Of a stretch of 55,024 nt of DNA, positions 2,885 to 23,639 are shown one piece after another. A model generated the notes under the pieces. It was not told the DNA's origin. It saw only the letters and a program-made list of their open reading frames with translations, and did no database searches. Made by a program: the position numbers and the translations under genes. How positions within the stretch are numbered: position 1 is the stretch's first letter; each line of letters starts with the position of its first letter. Source of the DNA: Paracoccaceae bacterium (GTDB taxonomy: Bacteria > Pseudomonadota > Alphaproteobacteria > Rhodobacterales > Rhodobacteraceae). The stretch spans positions 1-55,024 of the forward strand of contig JAAEZA010000026.1 of NCBI GenBank assembly GCA_018223125.1, in the 5' to 3' direction.

Positions 2885-3541
2885 TCAGGACTTCAGCTTC
2901 TCCATCATGAATTGCAGGGCCAACCCCAAACCGTCTGGCGCAATGCCATGCGCCGTGCCTTTGGACACATGGGTATAAACCTCAAACCCTGCCCCGCTCA
3001 GCACCTCGGCCGCTTCGGGCATGGAACTCGGCGGCACCACATCGTCCATATCCCCGTGCACCAGCAGAACCGGCGGCTTGTTCACCACTTCGCCAATCGC
3101 TTCGGGTGCCAGCAACCGACCTGAAAAGCCGACAATTCCTGCCAGTTTATCCGACAAACGCGGCCCCACGTGCAGGCTCATCATTGTGCCTTGGGAAAAG
3201 CCCACCAGAACCGTCTGTGCCGCAGTCACGCCTTCCGCCTTCATCGTCTCGACCAGCCAGTCCCCCAGCAGTGCGACGGCTTCTTCCATACCGGCCCGCG
3301 CGGCTTCTTCTGTAGAACCATCCATGCGCGGGATCGGGAACCATTCATACCCCATCGGGTTCATCGTGCAGCGGTTCGGCGCATCCGGCGCATAAAAAAC
3401 CGTATCCGGCATATGTTCCGCCAAAGGATCGGCCAGTGAAATCAGATCGTTCCCGTCCGCTCCGTAACCGTGCACAAAAATCACCAGTGACTTTGTGTTA
3501 CCGGATTTCGCAGCCCGTCTGTGGCTTTCCAACAGCGCCAT
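2885..3541 (-). CDS. Carboxylesterase/phospholipase family alpha/beta hydrolase
   Basis: A 218-residue alpha/beta hydrolase of the small carboxylesterase (YpfH/phospholipase-carboxylesterase) family. The oxyanion block HGYGADG, the nucleophile elbow GFSQG, the acid in HGDMDDVVP and the histidine in GTAHG form a complete catalytic triad. There is no signal peptide, so it should be cytoplasmic. An upstream GTG/ATG in the frame exists, but the ATG at 3541 overlaps the preceding stop as TAATG, the usual arrangement of translational coupling. It is the last gene of a leftward operon (cbiD-cobK-alkA-esterase) closed by a terminator. The natural ester substrate cannot be inferred, and its link to cobalamin synthesis is probably only positional. 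Confidence 0.85.
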   Translation of the reverse strand: MALLESHRRAAKSGNTKSLVIFVHGYGADGNDLISLADPLAEHMPDTVFYAPDAPNRCTMNPMGYEWFPIPRMDGSTEEAARAGMEEAVALLGDWLVETMKAEGVTAAQTVLVGFSQGTMMSLHVGPRLSDKLAGIVGFSGRLLAPEAIGEVVNKPPVLLVHGDMDDVVPPSSMPEAAEVLSGAGFEVYTHVSKGTAHGIAPDGLGLALQFMMEKLKS

Positions 3542-4901: not shown

Positions 4902-5953
4902 GCCGCCCGCCCCAGTATCGCACCGGCCCGATCAATCACCACAACGTCAATCATTACATCCGCCCCGCGCAATTGCGCCACCGCCTCCTGTTGCGCCAGT
5001 CGCGCGATCTCCACGGCGAGCTTTGGCCCCGCGATCGTTACCGCCTCCAACGCCGTATTCGCGCCCGATACCTCCGGCAACCCCAACCGCAACGCCACAG
5101 CATTCAACGCAGCGAAATCCACCTGCGAACGGGAGGAATGCAAATCCACCGCCCCCTGCGCCAGCTTGGTAATCTTGCCGATTCCACCGCCAATCGTCAT
5201 CCGCGGCACCGGATTTTTTGCCAGGTATTTCAACAAACCGCCGCTGAAATCCCCCATATCGAGCATGGCATGATCCGGCAGACCGTACAGCGCCTGCACC
5301 ACTCTTTCGGAAGTTGCACCCGTACATCCCGCCACATGGCTCTGCCCGCCCGCACGGGCCACATCCACGCCACGGTGGATAGAGGCAATCCACGCGGAAC
5401 AGGAAAACGGCCGCACCACGCCCGTCGTCCCCAATATCGACAAACCGCCCTTGATCCCCAGCCGCGGATTCCAGGTCTTCAGCGCAATCTCTGCCCCGCC
5501 CGGAATTGAAACCTCGATCACGACATCGCCACCCCGCCCGAAGGTGTTCGCCAGCGCCTCCACTTCTGCACACATCATCTGGCGTGGCACCGGATTGATT
5601 GCAGGCTCCCCGACTCCGATCGGCAATCCGGGCTTGGTCACAGTGCCAACGCCCTCGCCCGCCTTGAAAACCACACCGCCAGCGGATGCAGACACCCGTG
5701 CAATCACCAGCGCACCGTGGGTCACATCCGGATCATCCCCCGCATCCTTCGTAATGCCCACCTCGGCCCAGCCGTCCCCCTGCTCCTGATGGGCCAGCGG
5801 AAACACCGGCGTTTCCCCGCGCGGCAGCGTTATGCCAACCTCATTTGGAAACCCGTCGCCCCACAGCGCCAGCAATGCCGCTTTTACAGCGGCTGTTGCA
5901 CAGGCACCCGTGGTCCAGCCACGGCGCAATTCGGATACAGGTTTACGAGCCAT
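4898..5953 (-). CDS. cbiD: Cobalt-precorrin-5B C1-methyltransferase CbiD
   Basis: 351-residue CbiD, which methylates C1 during ring contraction in the cobalt-early (anaerobic-type) corrin route using SAM. The N-terminal RRGWTTGACATAAVKAA block and TGCTGATSE are hallmarks of CbiD. CbiD together with a CobK-type reductase fits the mixed cobalamin pathway seen in Rhodobacterales. It is the first gene of the leftward operon; the 159 bp between its start and cobA holds the divergent promoters. I looked there for a cobalamin riboswitch (B12 box) and did not find one. Confidence 0.92.
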   Translation of the reverse strand: MARKPVSELRRGWTTGACATAAVKAALLALWGDGFPNEVGITLPRGETPVFPLAHQEQGDGWAEVGITKDAGDDPDVTHGALVIARVSASAGGVVFKAGEGVGTVTKPGLPIGVGEPAINPVPRQMMCAEVEALANTFGRGGDVVIEVSIPGGAEIALKTWNPRLGIKGGLSILGTTGVVRPFSCSAWIASIHRGVDVARAGGQSHVAGCTGATSERVVQALYGLPDHAMLDMGDFSGGLLKYLAKNPVPRMTIGGGIGKITKLAQGAVDLHSSRSQVDFAALNAVALRLGLPEVSGANTALEAVTIAGPKLAVEIARLAQQEAVAQLRGADVMIDVVVIDRAGAILGRAA

Positions 5954-15977: not shown

Positions 15978-16307
15978 TCAGGCCGCTGAACGGGTATAGG
16001 CCGAGCCGAAATGGAACGGATTGTCCCCGCGGCGGATCCGCACGTTGGCGCGGTGCAGGTGATAGCCCTGCGCCTCCAGTATCTGGCGCACCATATGACC
16101 GATCATCTGACGAACCCTGACGCGCCGGATATCCGAAGCAAAAGCCTGTTCCAGCAACGGGGCAACGGCCTCCACCGCTGGGCGGCGCAGATAACAGGCC
16201 GTTTCCATGATGGCAAGGATGTGGGGCTGGTTCAGCCATGCCCAAAAGCGGGCACCGTTGCAGACAGCGTAGGTTTTGGCGAACTTATCGGGCCGGTATT
16301 CGAGCAT
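15978..16307 (-). CDS. Conserved-looking hypothetical protein (109 aa)
   Basis: I do not recognise the family. The protein is 109 residues, mostly helical, with a basic Arg/His-rich second half (VRQMIGHMVRQIL, then HRANVRIRRGDNPF) and no signal peptide or membrane segment. The ATG at 16307 is preceded by a strong AAGGAG at 8-nt spacing, which is the main reason to call it a gene. It is divergent from the PLP decarboxylase, and the five-unit 14-bp repeat array lies between them, 119 bp from its start codon. It could be controlled by the same regulator. A nucleic-acid-binding role is possible from its charge only. Confidence 0.6.
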   Translation of the reverse strand: MLEYRPDKFAKTYAVCNGARFWAWLNQPHILAIMETACYLRRPAVEAVAPLLEQAFASDIRRVRVRQMIGHMVRQILEAQGYHLHRANVRIRRGDNPFHFGSAYTRSAA

Positions 16308-16425
16308 TTTCGAGGCTCCTTATCAGGAAAGGATTTTACAGATGCCTGTGTAACGGGCATCCGAAAGTGCTGCCCGAGGCCACAAGGAACGTTAAACCGC
16401 GATTTCTCTAATATCCGGTTAACGC

Positions 16426-16495
16426 TGAAGCTTCATTTTTGACGCTTCATTTTAGAAGCTTCTTGCGTGACGCTTCATTTATGACGCTTCATATT
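16426..16495. repeat. Five-unit 14-bp operator-like array (array A)
   Basis: Five decamers start at 16426, 16440, 16454, 16468 and 16482, an exact 14-bp pitch: TGAAGCTTCA, TGACGCTTCA, AGAAGCTTCT, TGACGCTTCA, TGACGCTTCA, each followed by a 4-nt spacer that is AT-rich in four of the five units (TTTT twice). It fills the centre of the 318-bp gap between the divergent 109-aa gene and the decarboxylase (131 bp to the decarboxylase start). The same unit recurs at 21935 and 23612. Too short-period for CRISPR; best read as tandem binding sites for a regulator. Confidence 0.85.
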
Positions 16496-16625
16496 TGCAG
16501 GGTCTTAATCTGGGATACATACCGCGTGCCCCTGCATCAGGACATACCCGCGCCGGGCAATCTTCCCCTTGCCAGCTTCCCTTTCAACCGCTAGCATCTA
16601 CTTAACACGTTAGCGAGATGATACG

Positions 16626-18029
16626 ATGAAATATTCCGACTACGCCAAATGGACAAACCGCGCGACCCGCTGGATCGAAGACCATTTCGCCACGCTGCGA
16701 AACAAACCCGTCCGCGCACAGACAGCGCCGGGTGACATTGCAGCACGCCTTCCCGCCACACCGCCGGAACAGGCAACAGACATGGAAGCCATTATCGCGG
16801 ATTTTGAAAGGATCGTGCCGGATGGAATTACTCATTGGCAACATCCGCGTTTCTTTGCCTATTTCCCGTCGAACGCCGCCCCTGCCTCGATGATTGCCGA
16901 ACAATTAACCAATGCCATAGCCTCCCAATGCATGCTCTGGCAGACATCACCGGCGGCCACCGAAATCGAAGAAGTCATGATCGACTGGCTGCGTCAGGCC
17001 ATGGGGCTGCCAGAGCCGTTCAAAGGCGTCATTCAGGACAGCGCCAGCAGCGCCACACTTTCTGCGGTTCTGACAATGCGCGAACGGGCCACAGGATTCA
17101 CCGGCAATGATCAGGGCCTGTCCGGTCAGGGCCGGCTTCGGATTTACTGTTCTGCACAGGTCCACAGCTCTGTGGACAAAGCCTGCTGGGTTGCCGGTAT
17201 CGGTCAGGAAAATCTGGTGAAGATCCCCACCAACGCCGAATATCAGATGGACCCCGAGGCCTTGCAGGCCGCGATCTCGGCAGACCGCGCCGCAGGCCAT
17301 ATACCGGCAGGGCTGGTCCTGTGTACCGGCGGCACTTCGATCGGTGCCTGTGATGACCTGCCACCGCTGATTAAAATCGCCAAGGCCGAAGGTCTTTACA
17401 CCCATCTGGACGCCGCATGGGCCGGTTCCGCCATGATCTGCCCCGAATTCCGCCCGCTTTGGGCCGGAGCCGAGGACTGCGACAGTATCGTTTTCAATCC
17501 TCACAAATGGCTGGGCGCGAATTTCGACTGTTCCATCCAGTTCCTGCGGGACGCGGACATCCAGCGCCGCACCATGGGATTGCGCCCCTCCTATCTGGAA
17601 ACACCACAGGCGCAGGAGATTACGAATTTCAACGAATGGACCGTGCCGCTCGGACGGCGGTTCCGCGCGTTAAAGCTCTGGTTCCTGATCCGCGCTTACG
17701 GGCTGGAGGGCTTGCGCAGTCGCATCCGCAACCATGTGGCCTGGACGAAGGAACTGGAAGCCAAACTGCGCGCGCATCCAGATTTCACAATCACCACAGA
17801 CAGCAGGCTGGCCCTCTTTACCTTCCAGTTCACGCCCGCGGGCAAGGACGCAGACGCGGCTTCGGCAGATCTGTTGCAGCGGATCAATGATGATGGCCGG
17901 ATCTATCTGACCCAAACCCTGCACGAAGGCCGCTATGTCATCCGGTTCACCGCCGGGCAGTTCGATTGTACCCGCGAGGATGTGATGACAGCCTATGACG
18001 TGATCACCGAACTGGCAGCTTCGACCTAA
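16626..18029 (+). CDS. PLP-dependent aromatic-L-amino-acid-type decarboxylase
   Basis: 467-residue group II decarboxylase related to DOPA/tryptophan decarboxylase. The PLP lysine is Lys294 in NPHKWLG; the PLP-stacking histidine is in SAQVHSS (His180), and the cofactor aspartate in HLDAAWAGS (Asp262). The loop tyrosine needed for proton transfer in true decarboxylases is present (RPSYLE, Tyr323), which argues against the Phe-type aldehyde synthases. Expected reaction: an aromatic L-amino acid to its amine plus CO2. The 14-bp repeat array lies 131 bp upstream of the start. An MttB-type methyltransferase follows on the same strand after a 254-bp structured leader. Substrate cannot be assigned; it may be a modified amino acid. 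Confidence 0.88.
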   Translation: MKYSDYAKWTNRATRWIEDHFATLRNKPVRAQTAPGDIAARLPATPPEQATDMEAIIADFERIVPDGITHWQHPRFFAYFPSNAAPASMIAEQLTNAIASQCMLWQTSPAATEIEEVMIDWLRQAMGLPEPFKGVIQDSASSATLSAVLTMRERATGFTGNDQGLSGQGRLRIYCSAQVHSSVDKACWVAGIGQENLVKIPTNAEYQMDPEALQAAISADRAAGHIPAGLVLCTGGTSIGACDDLPPLIKIAKAEGLYTHLDAAWAGSAMICPEFRPLWAGAEDCDSIVFNPHKWLGANFDCSIQFLRDADIQRRTMGLRPSYLETPQAQEITNFNEWTVPLGRRFRALKLWFLIRAYGLEGLRSRIRNHVAWTKELEAKLRAHPDFTITTDSRLALFTFQFTPAGKDADAASADLLQRINDDGRIYLTQTLHEGRYVIRFTAGQFDCTREDVMTAYDVITELAAST

Positions 18030-18060
18030 AGGCACAGACAGGCGCGCCCCGAGCCCCGTC

Positions 18061-18146
18061 CAACTCCCGAAAACGACTCTTTTGACGCGAACAGACAAGC
18101 CTGCCCGCTTTTTGAGGCGCAGGCTTGAACCAGTTCGGGAGAGTTG
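18061..18146 (+). ncRNA. Candidate structured RNA in the mttB leader
   Basis: An outer stem pairs CAACTCCCGAA (18061-18071) with TTCGGGAGAGTTG (18134-18146; 11 bp with a 2-nt bulge), enclosing an inner perfect stem AAGCCTGC/GCAGGCTT (18097-18104 with 18119-18126). It starts 31 nt after the decarboxylase stop and ends 137 nt before the methyltransferase start. It has no U-tract, so it is not a simple terminator. It matches no riboswitch class I could recognise. Covariation has not been tested. Confidence 0.4.
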
Positions 18147-18151
18147 CCGCC

Positions 18152-18250
18152 ATGATCGACCTTGATTGGATGACAGCATTGATTTCGCGCACCATCGGTG
18201 CGGATCGCGGTCGCGCGGCGCGGGGATCGCCACGGGAATACAGCCGCTAG
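18152..18250 (+). CDS. Possible 32-aa leader peptide upstream of mttB-like gene
   Basis: A short frame ATG...TAG encoding MIDLDWMTALISRTIGADRG plus 12 mostly basic residues. It starts right after the structured stem, whose 3' arm contains GGGAGAG at 6-nt-plus spacing from the ATG, so folding could hide its ribosome site. It ends 33 bp before the methyltransferase start. No homology is claimed; it may be a chance frame. Confidence 0.25.
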   Translation: MIDLDWMTALISRTIGADRGRAARGSPREYSR

Positions 18251-18283
18251 AATCCGATCCGAAGCTTTCAAGGCAAATACCCT

Positions 18284-19822
18284 ATGTCAGATACACAATC
18301 CCGTCGTTCCGGAGGCCGCGCTGCACGTCAGGCCCTGCGGGCGGCCCCGCTTACTGATGCCATCCGTCCGGTCCGTGCCGGTATGGAAGGCGGCACTTAC
18401 AAACCTCTTTCCGAAGCGGCTGAAAAACGCATTTATCAGGCCGCGCTTGATGCCATGGAACAGATCGGTTTTGCCGATGCGCCGCCTTCGGGTGTGGACA
18501 TCCTGACCAAAGCAGGTGCCATTCTGGGGGATGACGGACGCATCCGTTTTCCCCGTGCCCTGGTCGAAGATATGCTTGCCAAAGCCAACCGCACTGTCAC
18601 GCTGTACGGGCGCGATCCGAAACACGACATGATCCTCTCGGGCAACCGTGTTCATTACGGCACCGCAGGGGCCGCGGTGCATTTGGTCGATGTTGAAAAC
18701 AACGACTACCGCGAATGCACCCTGCAGGATCTTTATGATGCGGCGCGGATTGTCGACCGGCTCGACAACGTCCATTTCCTGCAACGCCCGATGGTCTGTC
18801 GTGACATTCCTGACAATTATGAAATGGACCTGAACACGATTTATGCCTGCTGTTCGGGCACGACGAAACACGTTGGCACCTCTTTCACCGAGCCGTCGTT
18901 CATGAAAGGCGCCTTCGAGCTGATCTATGAAATTGCCGGCGGCGAGGACGCCTTTCGCGCCCGTCCCTTCATCTCAAACTCCAACTGTTTCGTCGTTCCA
19001 CCGATGAAATTTGCAACGGAATCCTGTGAGGTGATGGAACACTGTGTGCGCGGCGGAATGCCGGTCCTGTTGCTTTCAGCCGGTCAGGCAGGGGCCACCG
19101 CCCCCGCCCCGATCGCAGGCGCCATTGTGCAGGCGGTGGCGGAATGTCTGGCCGGTATGGTCTATGTCAACGCAATGGCACCGGGGCATCCTACTATCTT
19201 TGGCACATGGCCGTTCGTGTCGGATCTGCGCACCGGCGCCATGTCGGGCGGCTCTGGCGAGCAAGCCCTGTTGACAGCAGCCTGCGCACAGATGCACCAT
19301 TTCCTTGGCTTGCCGGGCGGTGCTGCGGCAGGCATTGCCGATGCAAAAATGCCGGATATGCAGGCCGGTTACGAACAGGCCCATTCCAACGTCATGGCGG
19401 GACTGGCCGGTCTGAACATGGTTTATGAGGCCGTCGGAATGCACGCCTCCCTGCTGGGGTTCTGCCTTGAAAGCCTGATTATCGGAGACGATCTTCTGGG
19501 CCAGTCCCTGCGCTGTGTCCGCGGCATTGAAGTGAACGAGGATACCGTCTCCCTTGATGTCATCCGTTCGGTCTGTCTGGACGGTCCAGGGCACTATCTC
19601 GGCTCGGCGCAAACCCTGTCCCTTATGCAGACGGAATACATCTACCCCGCTCTCGGGGATCGCAGTTCTCCGAAGGAATGGGCCGAACTGGGCAAGCCCG
19701 ACCTGATCCGGAAAGCCATCAAACGCAAGAATGAAATTCTGGCCGAGCCTTCCAAAGCACGGTTTGATCCGCAAACCGATGCGGCAATCCGCGCGGCTTT
19801 CACAATCCATTTGCCCGCCTGA
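18284..19822 (+). CDS. MttB-family (trimethylamine methyltransferase-like) protein
   Basis: 512-residue TIM-barrel member of the MttB superfamily, which moves a methyl group from a quaternary or tertiary amine to a corrinoid protein. Recognisable blocks: GTAGAAVHLVD, GTTKHVGTSF, SNCFVVPPMKF, LLLSAGQAGATAP, GTWPFVSDLRTGAMSGGS and GPGHYLGS. There is no in-frame amber codon, so this is the non-pyrrolysine branch (as MtgB/MtpB for betaines). No MttC-type corrinoid protein, second methyltransferase or reactivase is adjacent. The basic N-terminus (RRSGGRAARQALRAAPL) is typical of Rhodobacterales homologues. Cobalamin genes are in the window but not linked. Candidate substrates are glycine betaine or another betaine; carnitine genes 12 kb away would supply glycine betaine. 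Confidence 0.87.
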   Translation: MSDTQSRRSGGRAARQALRAAPLTDAIRPVRAGMEGGTYKPLSEAAEKRIYQAALDAMEQIGFADAPPSGVDILTKAGAILGDDGRIRFPRALVEDMLAKANRTVTLYGRDPKHDMILSGNRVHYGTAGAAVHLVDVENNDYRECTLQDLYDAARIVDRLDNVHFLQRPMVCRDIPDNYEMDLNTIYACCSGTTKHVGTSFTEPSFMKGAFELIYEIAGGEDAFRARPFISNSNCFVVPPMKFATESCEVMEHCVRGGMPVLLLSAGQAGATAPAPIAGAIVQAVAECLAGMVYVNAMAPGHPTIFGTWPFVSDLRTGAMSGGSGEQALLTAACAQMHHFLGLPGGAAAGIADAKMPDMQAGYEQAHSNVMAGLAGLNMVYEAVGMHASLLGFCLESLIIGDDLLGQSLRCVRGIEVNEDTVSLDVIRSVCLDGPGHYLGSAQTLSLMQTEYIYPALGDRSSPKEWAELGKPDLIRKAIKRKNEILAEPSKARFDPQTDAAIRAAFTIHLPA

Positions 19823-19832
19823 ATCTATTACG

Positions 19833-19872
19833 TGCCCCCGTATGAGAAACACATCTTTCCATTACGGGGGCA
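19833..19872. promoter_or_regulatory. Inverted repeat before the marR-like start
   Basis: Perfect 10-bp inverted repeat TGCCCCCGTA (19833-19842) and TACGGGGGCA (19863-19872) separated by 20 bp, in the 59 bp between the mttB-like stop and the GTG start of the MarR-family gene. As DNA it could be an operator; as RNA the 3' arm (GGGGGCAGAAG) overlaps the likely ribosome-binding site. No T-run follows, so it is not a typical terminator. Confidence 0.55.
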
Positions 19873-19881
19873 GAAGTTATA

Positions 19882-20349
19882 GTGAACGTGTTAGATAGTT
19901 TCAGACAGGCACACCGCTACATGAGCAAATTCTTCGTCAAGACAGATGAATCCCTCCCCATTATGCTGCTTCGCGCGCGAGAGGCCGTGATGTGCCGGAT
20001 ACGGCCTTTCCTGATAAAACACGACCTGTCAGAGCAACAATGGCGGGTCCTGCGCATACTGGACGAAGTCGGCCCATTGGAACCTACCGAACTCGGGGAA
20101 CGCTGCATGGTGCTTACCCCAAGTCTGACCCGTATTCTTTCCCTGCTGGAAAAGCGCCAGATGATCCGTCGCGAACAGCACCCCACGGACCGGCGTAAAC
20201 AGATCATCCACCTGGCCGAACCGGGCCATGATGTCATCGGAAAAATTGCGCCCGAGGCCCAGAAAATCTATGAGGATCTGGAAGAGCATTTCGGAAAACC
20301 ACAGATGATCAACCTGTTGAACAAGTTGAAAAAACTATCCGAATTCTAG
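19882..20349 (+). CDS. MarR/HpaR-family transcriptional regulator
   Basis: 155-residue winged-helix regulator. The segments LSEQQWRVLRIL, LEPTELGERCMVLTPSLTRIL and the wing RREQHPTDRRKQ follow the order of MarR proteins, most like the homoprotocatechuate regulator HpaR/HpcR. Such proteins usually repress catabolic genes and are released by an aromatic or phenolic ligand. I use the GTG at 19882, preceded by GGGGGCAGAAG; an internal ATG at 19921 is the alternative. It lies between the MttB-like and lyase genes and overlaps the convergent lyase by 4 bp at the 3' ends. It is the only regulator within the block bounded by the 14-bp arrays and thus the first candidate to bind them, though this is inference. 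Confidence 0.88.
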   Translation: MNVLDSFRQAHRYMSKFFVKTDESLPIMLLRAREAVMCRIRPFLIKHDLSEQQWRVLRILDEVGPLEPTELGERCMVLTPSLTRILSLLEKRQMIRREQHPTDRRKQIIHLAEPGHDVIGKIAPEAQKIYEDLEEHFGKPQMINLLNKLKKLSEF

Positions 20350-21689
20350 GCGTTCTCGCCCCCCTGTTCCGCAACCATCCCGCAAAATCGCCTGACAATT
20401 TCTTCGGTTTCTCCAAGAGCGGTCTTCACGTCAAACACGCGGTCCCAATCAATTGCAATAACTGTTTCGCGCGCCATAACAGCGCGAAGCGACTCGCCGG
20501 TTTCAGCCGCTTTGGCACAGGCGGATTTGGTCAGTGCGCGGGCATCAGCCAGCGGCATATGTTCAGCCAGCGCAAAACTCGCCGCTTCGGCCATCATCAA
20601 ACCCTTTGTGTCCTTAAATACAGCGGCCAGCTTCTCCGGTTCCACGCTTAAGGACTTTGACAACTCAAGACCATGACGCAGCGCAGCACCTGTGGCCACA
20701 ATCAGAGAAGGAAGCGAAAGCCATTCCTGCGACCAGGCTGCACCGTCCCGTTCCTGCGCGTGAAACGCCGCGCCTGCGACCTGCCCGGCAAGCCCCTGCC
20801 CCTGTCGGGCCAGCGCCAGCATCGCCTCTGCTCCGGTCGGATTGGCTTTGTGGGGCATCGTGCTGGACCCGCCACCGGCACCGGCCCGCAGTCCGTCCCC
20901 GATCTGCGCTGACAACAAAAGATCCTGCGCCATCTTGCCAACAGACCCGCAAATCAGACCGCACAGGTTTGCCAGTTCGCAAATTCCGTCCCGCGCCGAA
21001 TGCCATGGCAGTTCCGCACGACCAAGCCCAAGCTCATCCGCAAGCGCATCCGCCGTTTCCATCCCCCGCCCTTCAAAAGCAGAGAGATTTCCGGACGCAC
21101 CGGCAAGCGAAACCACCAGCACGCGCGGGCGCAGTTCCGCCAGCCGCTGGCGGTGGCGCAAAAACGGCGCCCCCCAGCCTGCGATCCGCGCACCAAGTGC
21201 TGTCGGTGTGGCAATCTGGTGGCGCGTGCGCGCACCCATCGGGGTGGATTTAAAGGCTTCGGCCTGCGCCGCCAGCGTATCCAGCAATGATGCAAGCCGA
21301 GCGTCCAGAGTATCGAGCACGCGACGCAGACGTAGAACCAGTGCGGTATCTATAATATCTTGCGAGGTCGCCCCTTTGTGCAGATAGGCGCTGTGCTCCG
21401 GTGCTTGCATTTCCGTTGCAAAAGCCGAAACCAGCGCAGGTACGACCACACCGTCCCGCGCAACACCGGCGGCCAGATGTCCGGGGTCGATCAGCACTTC
21501 ACGGGCCATGCGGTTGATGATCTCTCCGCTTTCCTGCGGGATCGTGCCAAGTTTGCCTTGCGCGGCGGCGAGCGCCCCTTCCACCAGCAACATCGCGCGG
21601 ACTTCGGCGCTGTCCGAAAACAACACCGAAAGTTCGCTGTCCCCGAACAACCCTTTGAACATTTGCCCTTCGGCCAGAGAAATCGCCAT
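20346..21689 (-). CDS. Fumarase/ASL-superfamily lyase (PcaB-like)
   Basis: 447-residue member of the aspartase/fumarase superfamily, closest in pattern to 3-carboxy-cis,cis-muconate cycloisomerase and adenylosuccinate lyase. The superfamily signature GGSSTMPHKANPTGAE is present, as are KGATSQDIIDTAL and GARTRHQIATPT; these supply the catalytic serine loop and the histidine. The protocatechuate genes that normally accompany pcaB are absent here, so another substrate is possible. The start is uncertain: ATG 21689 has no clear ribosome site, and ATG 21662 follows AAGGG at short spacing. It is divergent from the HSL esterase, with the three-unit array in the gap, 246 bp from this start. Confidence 0.82.
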   Translation of the reverse strand: MAISLAEGQMFKGLFGDSELSVLFSDSAEVRAMLLVEGALAAAQGKLGTIPQESGEIINRMAREVLIDPGHLAAGVARDGVVVPALVSAFATEMQAPEHSAYLHKGATSQDIIDTALVLRLRRVLDTLDARLASLLDTLAAQAEAFKSTPMGARTRHQIATPTALGARIAGWGAPFLRHRQRLAELRPRVLVVSLAGASGNLSAFEGRGMETADALADELGLGRAELPWHSARDGICELANLCGLICGSVGKMAQDLLLSAQIGDGLRAGAGGGSSTMPHKANPTGAEAMLALARQGQGLAGQVAGAAFHAQERDGAAWSQEWLSLPSLIVATGAALRHGLELSKSLSVEPEKLAAVFKDTKGLMMAEAASFALAEHMPLADARALTKSACAKAAETGESLRAVMARETVIAIDWDRVFDVKTALGETEEIVRRFCGMVAEQGGENA

Positions 21690-21934
21690 AATCGCACCCG
21701 TTTTTCAATTTGGCGCGACCATACATTTTGCAGTTCCGGAGGTCATCCCGAATTTTAAGAAAGTATGCACGGGATTGTCCTGCCGATATCACAGGGAAGC
21801 GCAGGGTAGGTTGACTTGCCACAGACCTGTCCGCGCGACCGGCCATGCGCATCGGGATATGCGGAAAGGCCGGAATTCATCGCATGTCAATACATTGAAA
21901 ATACGTGCAAAACACCGTTAACATACTGCATATA

Positions 21935-21976
21935 TGAAGCTTCATATTAGAAGCTTCTTAAATGAAGCTTCAAGGT
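21935..21976. repeat. Three-unit 14-bp operator-like array (array B)
   Basis: Decamers TGAAGCTTCA (21935), AGAAGCTTCT (21949) and TGAAGCTTCA (21963) at an exact 14-bp pitch with AT-rich spacers, all three perfectly palindromic. It lies in the 342-bp gap between the divergent lyase (-) and esterase (+), 55 bp before the esterase ATG. The rest of the gap shows no other gene or clear structure. Same unit as at 16426 and 23612. Confidence 0.85.
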
Positions 21977-22031
21977 TAACTGTTCATTAGGAAAGTCTTG
22001 CAGCGCCCCGCGACCGGTCCTAAGTTGTGGC

Positions 22032-22949
22032 ATGGATTATTCAAAGCATATCGACGCCGAAACATGGGATTTCATCAATAAAACGGCCGAGTATTACCCG
22101 CCGGATACGGTAGAAAGTACCATCGAACAACAGCGCGAAATCTATGACACCATGTGCCGCGCCTTTTTCACCGGCTACCCCGATGGCGTCAGCGCAACGG
22201 ATCACATGATCGGCCATATTCCCACCCGCCAGTACACTTGCGGCGGCTCTGCAACGACCGTAATGTATTTTCACGGCGGCGGCTTTGTGGTCGGGGGGCT
22301 CGACTCCCATGACGATGTTTGCGCCGAAATCTGCGAGCGCACCGGAATGGATGTGGTTTCGGTCGATTACCGCATGGCGCCGGAGCATAAACACCCCGCA
22401 ATGTTCGACGACTGCCTTGCAGCGACAAACCATATTCTGGAGACCCGCAAAGGGCCGGTCATTCTGGCCGGTGACAGTGCCGGCGGCAATCTCGGGGCAA
22501 CGGTCAGCCACCGGCTGCGCCATGATCCGCGTCTGATTGGTCAGGTCCTGATCTATCCGGGGCTCGGCGGGGACATTGATGCAGGCTCCTTCCTGACCCA
22601 CGCCAATGCGCCGATGCTGACACGGGATGAAATCCTGTTCTATGAAGGTGTTCGCTATGACGGACCAAAGCCCACAAATGATCCTACAGCTGTGCCGCTT
22701 CAGGACACCGATTTCTCGAATCTGCCCCCTACAGTTCTGATATCTGCGGAATGCGACCCGATCACCGACGGTTGTCGTGACTACCGCGATGCGCTGACAG
22801 CCGCCGGTTGCAAGGTCGTCTGGTTCAATGAAACCGGTCTGATCCACGGCTACCTGCGCGGGCGTCATACCGTCAAACGGGCACGGGACAGCTTTGACAG
22901 GGTCATCGCCGCGCTGAACGCCCTTGCACGGCGTGACTGGCCCTATTGA
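22032..22949 (+). CDS. HSL-family alpha/beta hydrolase (esterase)
   Basis: 305-residue hydrolase of the hormone-sensitive-lipase (esterase family IV) type. The oxyanion motif HGGG is at residues 81-84, the nucleophile elbow GDSAGG at 147-152 (Ser149), the acid in SAECDPITDG, and the histidine in GLIHGY. No signal peptide, so cytoplasmic. It opens a rightward pair with a sulfotransferase 24 bp downstream. Array B lies 55 bp upstream of its ATG, a position fitting direct control. The substrate ester or amide is unknown; kynurenine-formamidase-like activity is possible within this fold but not supported by a specific motif. Confidence 0.87.
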   Translation: MDYSKHIDAETWDFINKTAEYYPPDTVESTIEQQREIYDTMCRAFFTGYPDGVSATDHMIGHIPTRQYTCGGSATTVMYFHGGGFVVGGLDSHDDVCAEICERTGMDVVSVDYRMAPEHKHPAMFDDCLAATNHILETRKGPVILAGDSAGGNLGATVSHRLRHDPRLIGQVLIYPGLGGDIDAGSFLTHANAPMLTRDEILFYEGVRYDGPKPTNDPTAVPLQDTDFSNLPPTVLISAECDPITDGCRDYRDALTAAGCKVVWFNETGLIHGYLRGRHTVKRARDSFDRVIAALNALARRDWPY

Positions 22950-22973
22950 TCCGGCAGGAGCAAGCCCCCCACC

Positions 22974-23579
22974 ATGATGATCGACTATGAACGCAAACTG
23001 GTGTTTCTGTCCAATCGCAAGGTTGCGTCTACCTCCATGGAACGCGCTCTTGGTCAGATCAAAGGCATGGCGCGGATGAATGGCAATCCGGTTCTAAAAC
23101 ATGTGGATTTCACCCGTTACAAGCGGATGGAACAGCCCCTGCGAACCAGAGGGTTCACCACAATCACCGTGGTGCGAGAACCGTTTAACAAAGCCGTCAG
23201 CTGGTATAAATTCCGCGCCCGACCGGAGTTGAAGGGCGATCCCCGCTATGTCGGGCATCTGGATTTCGAAACATTTCTGAACAACTTCATTTCCGGCAAA
23301 AGCGGTTGGGCCATGGAGTTCCTCGACAATCTGTTTTGCATTGACAATCGCAGTGGGGAGTCCGTGGACATCATTCACAAATACGAAAACCTCGGCGCAT
23401 TCGAAACCCTGCTGCGCAACATCTACGGTGAAGACTTCACCCTGCCGCATCTGAATGTATCCGCTGCCGTTGCTGAAACCGATTATTCCACTCATCGTGC
23501 AGGCTACGAAGCTGCCTTTCCGGAGGCTTTTGAATGGTACCGCGCCCTTCCCGAAGCTGCTGTAAAAATCAATATATAG
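22974..23579 (+). CDS. Sulfotransferase family 2-like protein
   Basis: 201-residue protein with features of PAPS-dependent sulfotransferases: a 5'-phosphosulfate-binding loop in SNRKVASTSME near the N-terminus and a 3'-phosphate segment TVVREPFNKAVSWYKFR at about residues 63-79. The protein is short compared with most sulfotransferases (250-300), but seems complete. Two adjacent ATGs start it; the ribosome site is weak. It is cotranscribed with the esterase by position (24 bp). Its acceptor is unknown. Array C lies 32 bp past its stop codon. Confidence 0.75.
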   Translation: MMIDYERKLVFLSNRKVASTSMERALGQIKGMARMNGNPVLKHVDFTRYKRMEQPLRTRGFTTITVVREPFNKAVSWYKFRARPELKGDPRYVGHLDFETFLNNFISGKSGWAMEFLDNLFCIDNRSGESVDIIHKYENLGAFETLLRNIYGEDFTLPHLNVSAAVAETDYSTHRAGYEAAFPEAFEWYRALPEAAVKINI

Positions 23580-23611
23580 GGGTGCCGCGCCGCCCGATCA
23601 CCCTGCAAATA

Positions 23612-23639
23612 TGAAGCGTCTTGTATGACGCTTCATATT
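23612..23639. repeat. Two-unit 14-bp array (array C)
   Basis: TGAAGCGTCT at 23612 and TGACGCTTCA at 23626, again 14 bp apart; the first unit is the reverse-complement form of the GACGC half. Unlike arrays A and B it lies between the 3' ends of convergent genes (sulfotransferase and phosphodiesterase-like), with no annotated promoter. The 149-bp gap shows no other recognisable feature. Confidence 0.75.

Follow-up and report, generated by a model that had tools for sequence, protein, structure and literature searches.

A family of short phased palindromic arrays dispersed between genes in a few related marine bacteria, with a small orphan protein as candidate partner

The repeat described here is a family of short elements that occupy dozens of intergenic positions in a handful of related marine bacteria; its units follow one another at a pitch of 14 bp. 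Its partner is very probably P, an orphan basic protein of approximately 109 amino acids, which would bind the arrays. The explanation that we favor on balance is that P is an autoregulator whose operator has become a genome-wide set of sites, perhaps with a structural role in the chromosome.

Results

Phased arrays in the window

The window, by which we mean the whole 55,024-nt stretch of DNA that was analyzed, contains three arrays, A, B and C (Table 1). A first-pass annotation had described array A as five copies of TGAMGCTTCA at a 14-bp step without drift, and this description is borne out: the units start at 16426, 16440, 16454, 16468 and 16482, the pitch is exactly 14 bp, and the third unit reads AGAAGCTTCT. 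The sister arrays that the same annotation had placed at 21935 (three copies) and 23612 (two copies) are both present with an exact 14-bp pitch, and, as it had also stated, the window holds no further array of two or more units. Single decamers with up to two mismatches occur in the window at chance level (76 found against 78.5 expected) and phased pairs do not, so the non-random feature is the phased pair. Array A lies in the gap separating the P gene on the minus strand from the PLP decarboxylase gene on the plus strand, and its CtrA-like box lies beyond the first unit core at a distance of exactly 4 bp; the type 1 end seen here is common to many arrays. The first-pass annotation had listed neither this box nor the terminal unit GCAGGGTC nor the small P gene. 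All three arrays fall within 7.2 kb (16427-23634), and most other arrays lie far apart.

Table 1. Coordinates of the P gene, the arrays and their associated elements in the window
Feature	Position	Strand	Remark
Gene of P	15978..16307	-	orphan protein of ~109 aa, basic; candidate array-binding protein
CTAA-N7-TTAA box	16408..16422	+	CtrA-like, one mismatch; read from the window sequence
Array A	16426..16491	.	five palindromic units, core GAMGCKTC, 14-bp pitch
Degenerate terminal unit GCAGGGTC	16497..16504	.	type 1 end, in phase with array A
Terminal unit CATACTGC	21922..21929	.	type 2, in phase with array B
Array B	21935..21972	.	three units, 14-bp pitch
TTAA-N7-TTAA-like box	21976..21990	-	one mismatch, 4 bp outside array B; read from the sequence
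Terminal unit CACCCTGC	23599..23606	.	type 1, in phase with array C
Array C	23612..23635	.	two units, 14-bp pitch, convergent genes on either side

Array anatomy

In the description that follows, the genome of the window is called G000, and G003, G004, G005, G031 and so on are genomes of the genus. The unit core, GAMGCKTC, is palindromic, and its variable positions M and K are nearly independent inside a unit (125 A/T, 37 C/T, 36 A/G and 12 C/G, three genomes pooled). The spacer of 6 bp is rich in A and T; its second base is T in 119 of 123 cases, and its fifth base is A in 114 of 123. At many arrays the end is formed by a degenerate in-phase unit, either GACCCTGC (type 1) or CATACTGC (type 2), and at others by a TTAA box (type 3).

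The units of G003 are mostly GACGCGTC, and 35 of its 54 array ends have a TTAA-N7-TTAA box (one mismatch at most) outside them, at exactly 4 bp in 33 instances, a tally made without a shuffled control. Such boxes are rarer elsewhere, at 8 of 50 ends in G000, 7 of 46 in G031 and, among the matches listed, 5 of 36 in G004. The CtrA site is quoted as TTAA-N7-TTAAC (PMC4046655), a form that the boxes outside the array ends resemble; unlike CtrA sites, the array-linked boxes often lie at gene ends instead of promoters and hold a fixed phase with another array.

Arrays across the genome

In G000, 47 exact adjacent unit pairs were counted, and 62 when one mismatch was allowed, against none for a reversed-pattern control (up to one mismatch). 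The loci fetched from this genome hold at least 25 arrays of 2-5 units each; this count includes one doubtful member (L036) and leaves out one element on contig C44 and arrays below the patterns. The C44 element (G000:C44:37720-37781) has type 1 ends and falls outside the two-unit pattern listing. According to gene calls from a simple home-made script, 13 of the 25 arrays lie in convergent, nine in tandem and two in divergent gaps, with one unclassified, and at 13 of the 25 no start codon is found on either side. The convergent/tandem/divergent counts are 15/7/1 of 23 arrays in G031, 12/12/3 of 27 in G003 (where L230, one element split by a phase shift, is counted twice) and 9/7/2 among at least 18 arrays in G004. 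Of 48 array ends in G000, 35 are turned toward the end of a gene; in a background taken from these loci, the figure is 122 of 258 (P 0.0003).

Scanning of 20 neighbor proteins identified GAPDH, RecN, PtsI-like, TsaC-like, L25-like, CoA transferase and LacI-type proteins, which share no theme. The 26 loci of G003 lie on its single contig, and their spacing along this chromosome is not more even than random, as 37% of simulations were as even or more so.

The first-pass annotation had read the arrays as the mark of a regulon comprising the genes of the window and had proposed a search of the full genome with a list of flanking genes. Such a search gives the at least 25 arrays described above, spread genome-wide, mostly at gene ends and beside identified genes that are unrelated, and the regulon reading is not supported: these positions and unrelated neighbors do not have the look of a pathway regulon, and the arrays do not form a set of sites upstream of co-functional genes, as a promoter regulon would. 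The more specific form of the idea, that the array is the cooperative operator of a catabolic regulon bound by the MarR-family protein encoded at 19882-20349, draws on the clustering of arrays A, B and C inside 7.2 kb that surround the MarR gene and on the conservation of this triplet in G031 and G004, but 22 further arrays of G000 lie elsewhere, beside unrelated genes where these were identified, and it is P that co-occurs with the arrays and abuts them in a distribution search that covered P only. We consider this form extremely improbable.

Regulation on a broader scale would make P an ordinary but global transcription regulator, with the arrays acting on neighboring promoters or as gene-end roadblocks at some dozens of loci. 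The arrays in tandem (9/25) and divergent (2/25) gaps would suit such action on promoters, P is probably self-regulating, as judged from its upstream sequences, and the excess of array ends facing gene ends is what a roadblock would produce; against this stand the 13 arrays with no start codon on either side and the lack of a common theme among the identified neighbors. A role in place of terminators is not favored by the comparison of convergent gaps, in which intrinsic-terminator-like sites are equally common with an array (17/38, some of these matches overlapping the array itself) and without one (7/15). Arrays therefore do not seem to replace terminators, and we discarded that candidate function. 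Taken together, we judge the global-regulator explanation to be unlikely, and a general promoter role of the dispersed sites is likewise unlikely.

The bias toward gene ends might also be expected if the arrays acted at the RNA level, with hairpins in their transcripts serving as terminators or as protection for 3' ends. Neighboring units can indeed pair, and their variable positions fit in 80 of 123 adjacent pairs, where about 69 are expected from column make-up; in the remaining 43 of 123, however, the hairpin is broken at a variable position. Arrays occur in divergent gaps too, and the majority of arrays finish in a ATATTTGCAGGGT-like sequence or a TTAA box and lack the T run of an intrinsic terminator. 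The exception is formed by L036 (at approximately 5036-5057) and L116 (approximately 3068-3089), where a T run follows the two units of the "array"; this locus resembles a true terminator of the ordinary kind, and its membership in the family is doubtful. The RNA hairpin was rejected as the main feature despite the slight excess of pairing between adjacent units, and we regard an RNA-level element as very unlikely.

Distribution and constraint

Exact pairs are found in 5 of 33 genomes of the genus and are lacking in 28, and when one mismatch is allowed, the array-less genomes contain 0-2 pairs, like the reversed control. Across 394 family genomes, a set with close to one member per genus, a stricter pattern matched nothing but the window's own genome. 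Scanning the whole collection for three-unit arrays returned 54 stretches, including those in Amylibacter cionae m18, Neptunicoccus sediminis CY02 and an Amylibacter metagenome-assembled genome; the stretches outside Amylibacter and Neptunicoccus have spacers that are repeat-like and mostly GC-rich and, judged by eye, resemble simple 14-bp tandem repeats or chance.

When flanks are compared, every G000 array except L032 and L035 (23 of 25) is matched by an array at the corresponding position in G031 or G004. The number of units is equal in 9 of 21 arrays paired between G000 and G031, and between G003 and the other genomes the same neighbor lies beside an array at four loci only (L211, L214, L175 and L224). 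For the 21 of 25 G000 arrays that have a G031 partner array, the fixed unit bases have changed at 1 of 358 aligned positions, compared with 780 of 4072 in the flanks; the corresponding values are 8/120 for M and K, 30/240 for the spacers and 85/821 for the 20 bp at the array edges. Because both partners were picked by the unit motif, the apparent change within units is lowered, but the contrast with the flanks is still large, and this alignment indicates that the unit cores are under strong constraint.

Protein P and its association with the arrays

The start of the P gene faces array A at a distance of 119 bp, and a paralogue, 52% identical, starts 72 bp from another array. A search of the genus found P in all five array genomes (nine genes and one remnant). 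Among the other 28 genomes a clear P occurs in G014 only (39% identity), though G014 has no exact pair, and G006 gives a weak, broken match (E 8.6e-4). The co-occurrence of P and arrays within the genus is significant by Fisher's test (P 2.5e-5, with G014 counted as P-bearing), a value to be read in light of the genomes being related and not independent. Units at a 14-bp pitch lie upstream of every P gene or remnant in the array genomes (10 of 10), and in 8 of the 10 these are the genome-wide unit. P is a better candidate binder than the MarR protein in view of its co-occurrence with the arrays and the position of its genes next to them, on the evidence of a distribution search directed at P only.

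The two remaining upstream regions belong to the P3 genes of G003 and G005, which carry variant units: GACGTGTC is paired with GACACGTC or a sequence close to it, and TTAA-like boxes are adjacent. These genes (L242 at G003:C1:797715 and L234 at G005:C223) represent a third P subfamily with an operator spelling of its own; in G005, a draft that is 72% complete, the P3 kind is the sole P found, and its operator is unlike the arrays. L242 sits inside a large inverted repeat. The G014 gene has GACGCGTC-N6-GACGTATC just upstream. The G031 orthologue of the window gene (L241/L243) is internally deleted and retains a 45-residue remnant frame; the array at the deleted locus and another, intact P copy remain in that genome.

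Searches with P against Pfam (best E 0.062, PRODH), PHROG (best E 0.1) and NCBIfam (no match) gave no family assignment, a sequence search of the PDB returned nothing credible, and PADLOC had no match for the P of the window; a weak PADLOC match of L249 to a Cas10d model (E 0.00096) was taken as chance. The predicted structure (mean pLDDT 94) comprises five helices followed by a C-terminal beta hairpin, an order of elements that would suit a winged helix. This reading draws on element order only, because Foldseek found no confident fold relative of the model (best E 1.2 in PDB and 0.11 in BFVD). P proteins of the array genomes are basic, with a pI of 9.5-10.6; those of G014 and G164 are equally basic, so charge is not special to the array genomes, and several plasmid and viral P proteins are neutral or acidic.

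Distant homologues of P

P is rare: it occurs in 2 of 394 genomes of the family, 2 of 385 of the class and 2 of 398 of the phylum, with G000 itself counted each time. Plasmid searches returned 10 records for each of two queries, six viral contigs carried homologues, and none was found in phage records. We scored 20 distant upstream regions, a set that includes the P3 genes (L234 and L242) and leaves out P1 and P2 of the array genomes, the near-duplicates L261 and L264, and a second Rhizobium record; several of the 20 are related, and the thresholds were set after a first look.

Under these terms, 9 of the 20 upstream regions score at least 12 at pitch 14 (7 of 18 without the two P3 genes) and 11 fall below the threshold. 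No other pitch between 9 and 24 takes more than 2 of the 20 to that score, and shuffles give a mean of 0.23 (maximum 3). In seven of the 20, the unit pair lies around a predicted -10 hexamer that follows a TTGAC or TTGAT element by 16-17 bp (shuffles: mean 0.02, maximum 1); the other 13 are below the promoter threshold, nine of them having no qualifying promoter at all. This promoter geometry suggests that P is probably autoregulated. The spelling of the units varies among homologues and the pitch stays the same, and it is chiefly this that leads us to believe that P reads these units.

A related genome with neither arrays nor P

In G027, a draft that is 95% complete, neither an array pair nor P was found. 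A tree of one protein, the TsaC-like neighbor, places G027 as sister to G003 (support 100/98) and both of them inside a clade with G000, G031 and G004 (100/100), for a taxon set that does not contain G005. At the tsaC-like locus itself, a gap of 145-184 bp holding an array is seen in G000, G031, G004 and G003, and the two genes overlap by 4 bp in G027. The simplest reading of this one-gene tree and nearly complete draft would be a joint loss of arrays and P in G027; two separate gains are possible instead.

The element-free locus in G027 could also be expected of selfish repeats of the REP/REPIN kind, according to which the arrays are non-autonomous mobile palindromes that P helps to spread, as RAYT transposases do. 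REP sequences, together with TnpA-REP/RAYT, are described as palindromic extragenic repeats (PMC8266576, PMC3733652); likeness to these systems lies in dispersed intergenic palindromes tied to one gene family and restricted to a clade, and the few neighbors that G003 shares with other genomes would suit mobility. Against mobility, 23 of the 25 G000 arrays have a partner in place in G031 or G004. P differs from RAYT in having no match to a Y1/HUH transposase in Pfam, and a His-Leu-His triplet is present in only 2 of 19 aligned P proteins, namely the window's P and the orthologue from G004, and is missing from the remaining 17. Moreover, P genes beyond the clade seem to be autoregulated and come with a unit spelling of their own; units that are spelled differently at distant P genes and keep the same pitch suit an operator better than a REP/REPIN-like repeat. 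We therefore hold this explanation to be decidedly unlikely.

Discussion

The explanation that we prefer, an autoregulator with a multiplied operator, can be set out as follows. Array A is both the upstream region of the P gene and one copy of the dispersed element. P would probably be a small dimeric DNA-binding autoregulator that recognizes palindromic octamers placed every 14 bp and assembles along the array. The ancestral role was probably autorepression, to judge from the geometry of several plasmid, viral-contig and distant chromosomal homologues, in which the two units bracket the predicted -10 box of P's promoter. Multiplication of the operator in the array clade of Neptunicoccus and Amylibacter would have given dozens of conserved intergenic sites, which are biased to gene ends and accompanied, above all in G003, by CtrA-like boxes 4 bp outside the array. 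The most likely use of these sites would be sequence-specific anchoring or organization of the chromosome. Taken by itself, such a chromosome-structural role of the dispersed sites is possible, and we propose it tentatively. The suggestion in the first-pass annotation of a cooperative protein on the array survives in part: the arrays are probably bound cooperatively, as the constraint on the units and the preference for pitch 14 upstream of distant P homologues suggest.

SlmA, Noc and MatP each pair a small protein with specific palindromic sites that number a few dozen and are scattered along one chromosome. The logic proposed here would be comparable, and the likeness consists in dozens of specific, dispersed sites (25 arrays in G000, 26 loci in G003). 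The sites of this study differ in being short phased tandem arrays of 2-7 units biased to gene ends, and P differs in being an orphan that is present also on plasmids and viral contigs and that has no TetR, ParB or MatP family match in Pfam. A regional bias of sites toward ter or ori belongs to those systems; the gap spacing in G003 is random-like. SlmA, Noc and MatP are presented as dispersed-site nucleoid systems in two papers (PMC4726725, PMC3116907).

With regard to the manner of binding, a different precedent is closer. MetJ is a tandem-operator repressor that acts on met boxes, palindromic 8-bp sites at an 8-bp pitch. The arrays share with met boxes palindromic 8-bp sites in short series suited to cooperative binding, and differ from them in the 14-bp pitch, in the protein and in lying mostly off promoters. 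Among the open-access literature matches listed, we found nothing on the repeat TGAAGCTTCA, on Neptunicoccus arrays or on dispersed Roseobacter palindromes. The first-pass annotation had called the combination of array, pitch and gene set unfamiliar, and we found no described counterpart of the phased array among these matches.

An anonymous repeat is thus tied to a specific small protein through co-occurrence, gene adjacency, and operators that vary in spelling and keep a constant pitch. By this tie to P, a nameless genome-wide DNA-protein system becomes directly testable. If P organizes the chromosome, then a repressor of the mobile-element type can turn into a nucleoid system within one genus, and G003 and G027 offer a natural comparison with and without it. 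We speculate further, and regard as doubtful, that the autorepressor was domesticated in one marine alphaproteobacterial lineage, that its operator was copied between genes, that P filaments beside CtrA-like boxes organize the chromosome, possibly in a cell-cycle-linked manner, and that the site set vanishes together with P.

The P family, hitherto unnamed, appears also to travel on plasmids and viral contigs. Among the plasmid P loci L251, L252 and L263, genes for PP2C-type phosphatases adjoin P in Acinetobacter and Lelliottia, with a Fic gene nearby at L251 and a RelE/ParE toxin gene nearby at L263.
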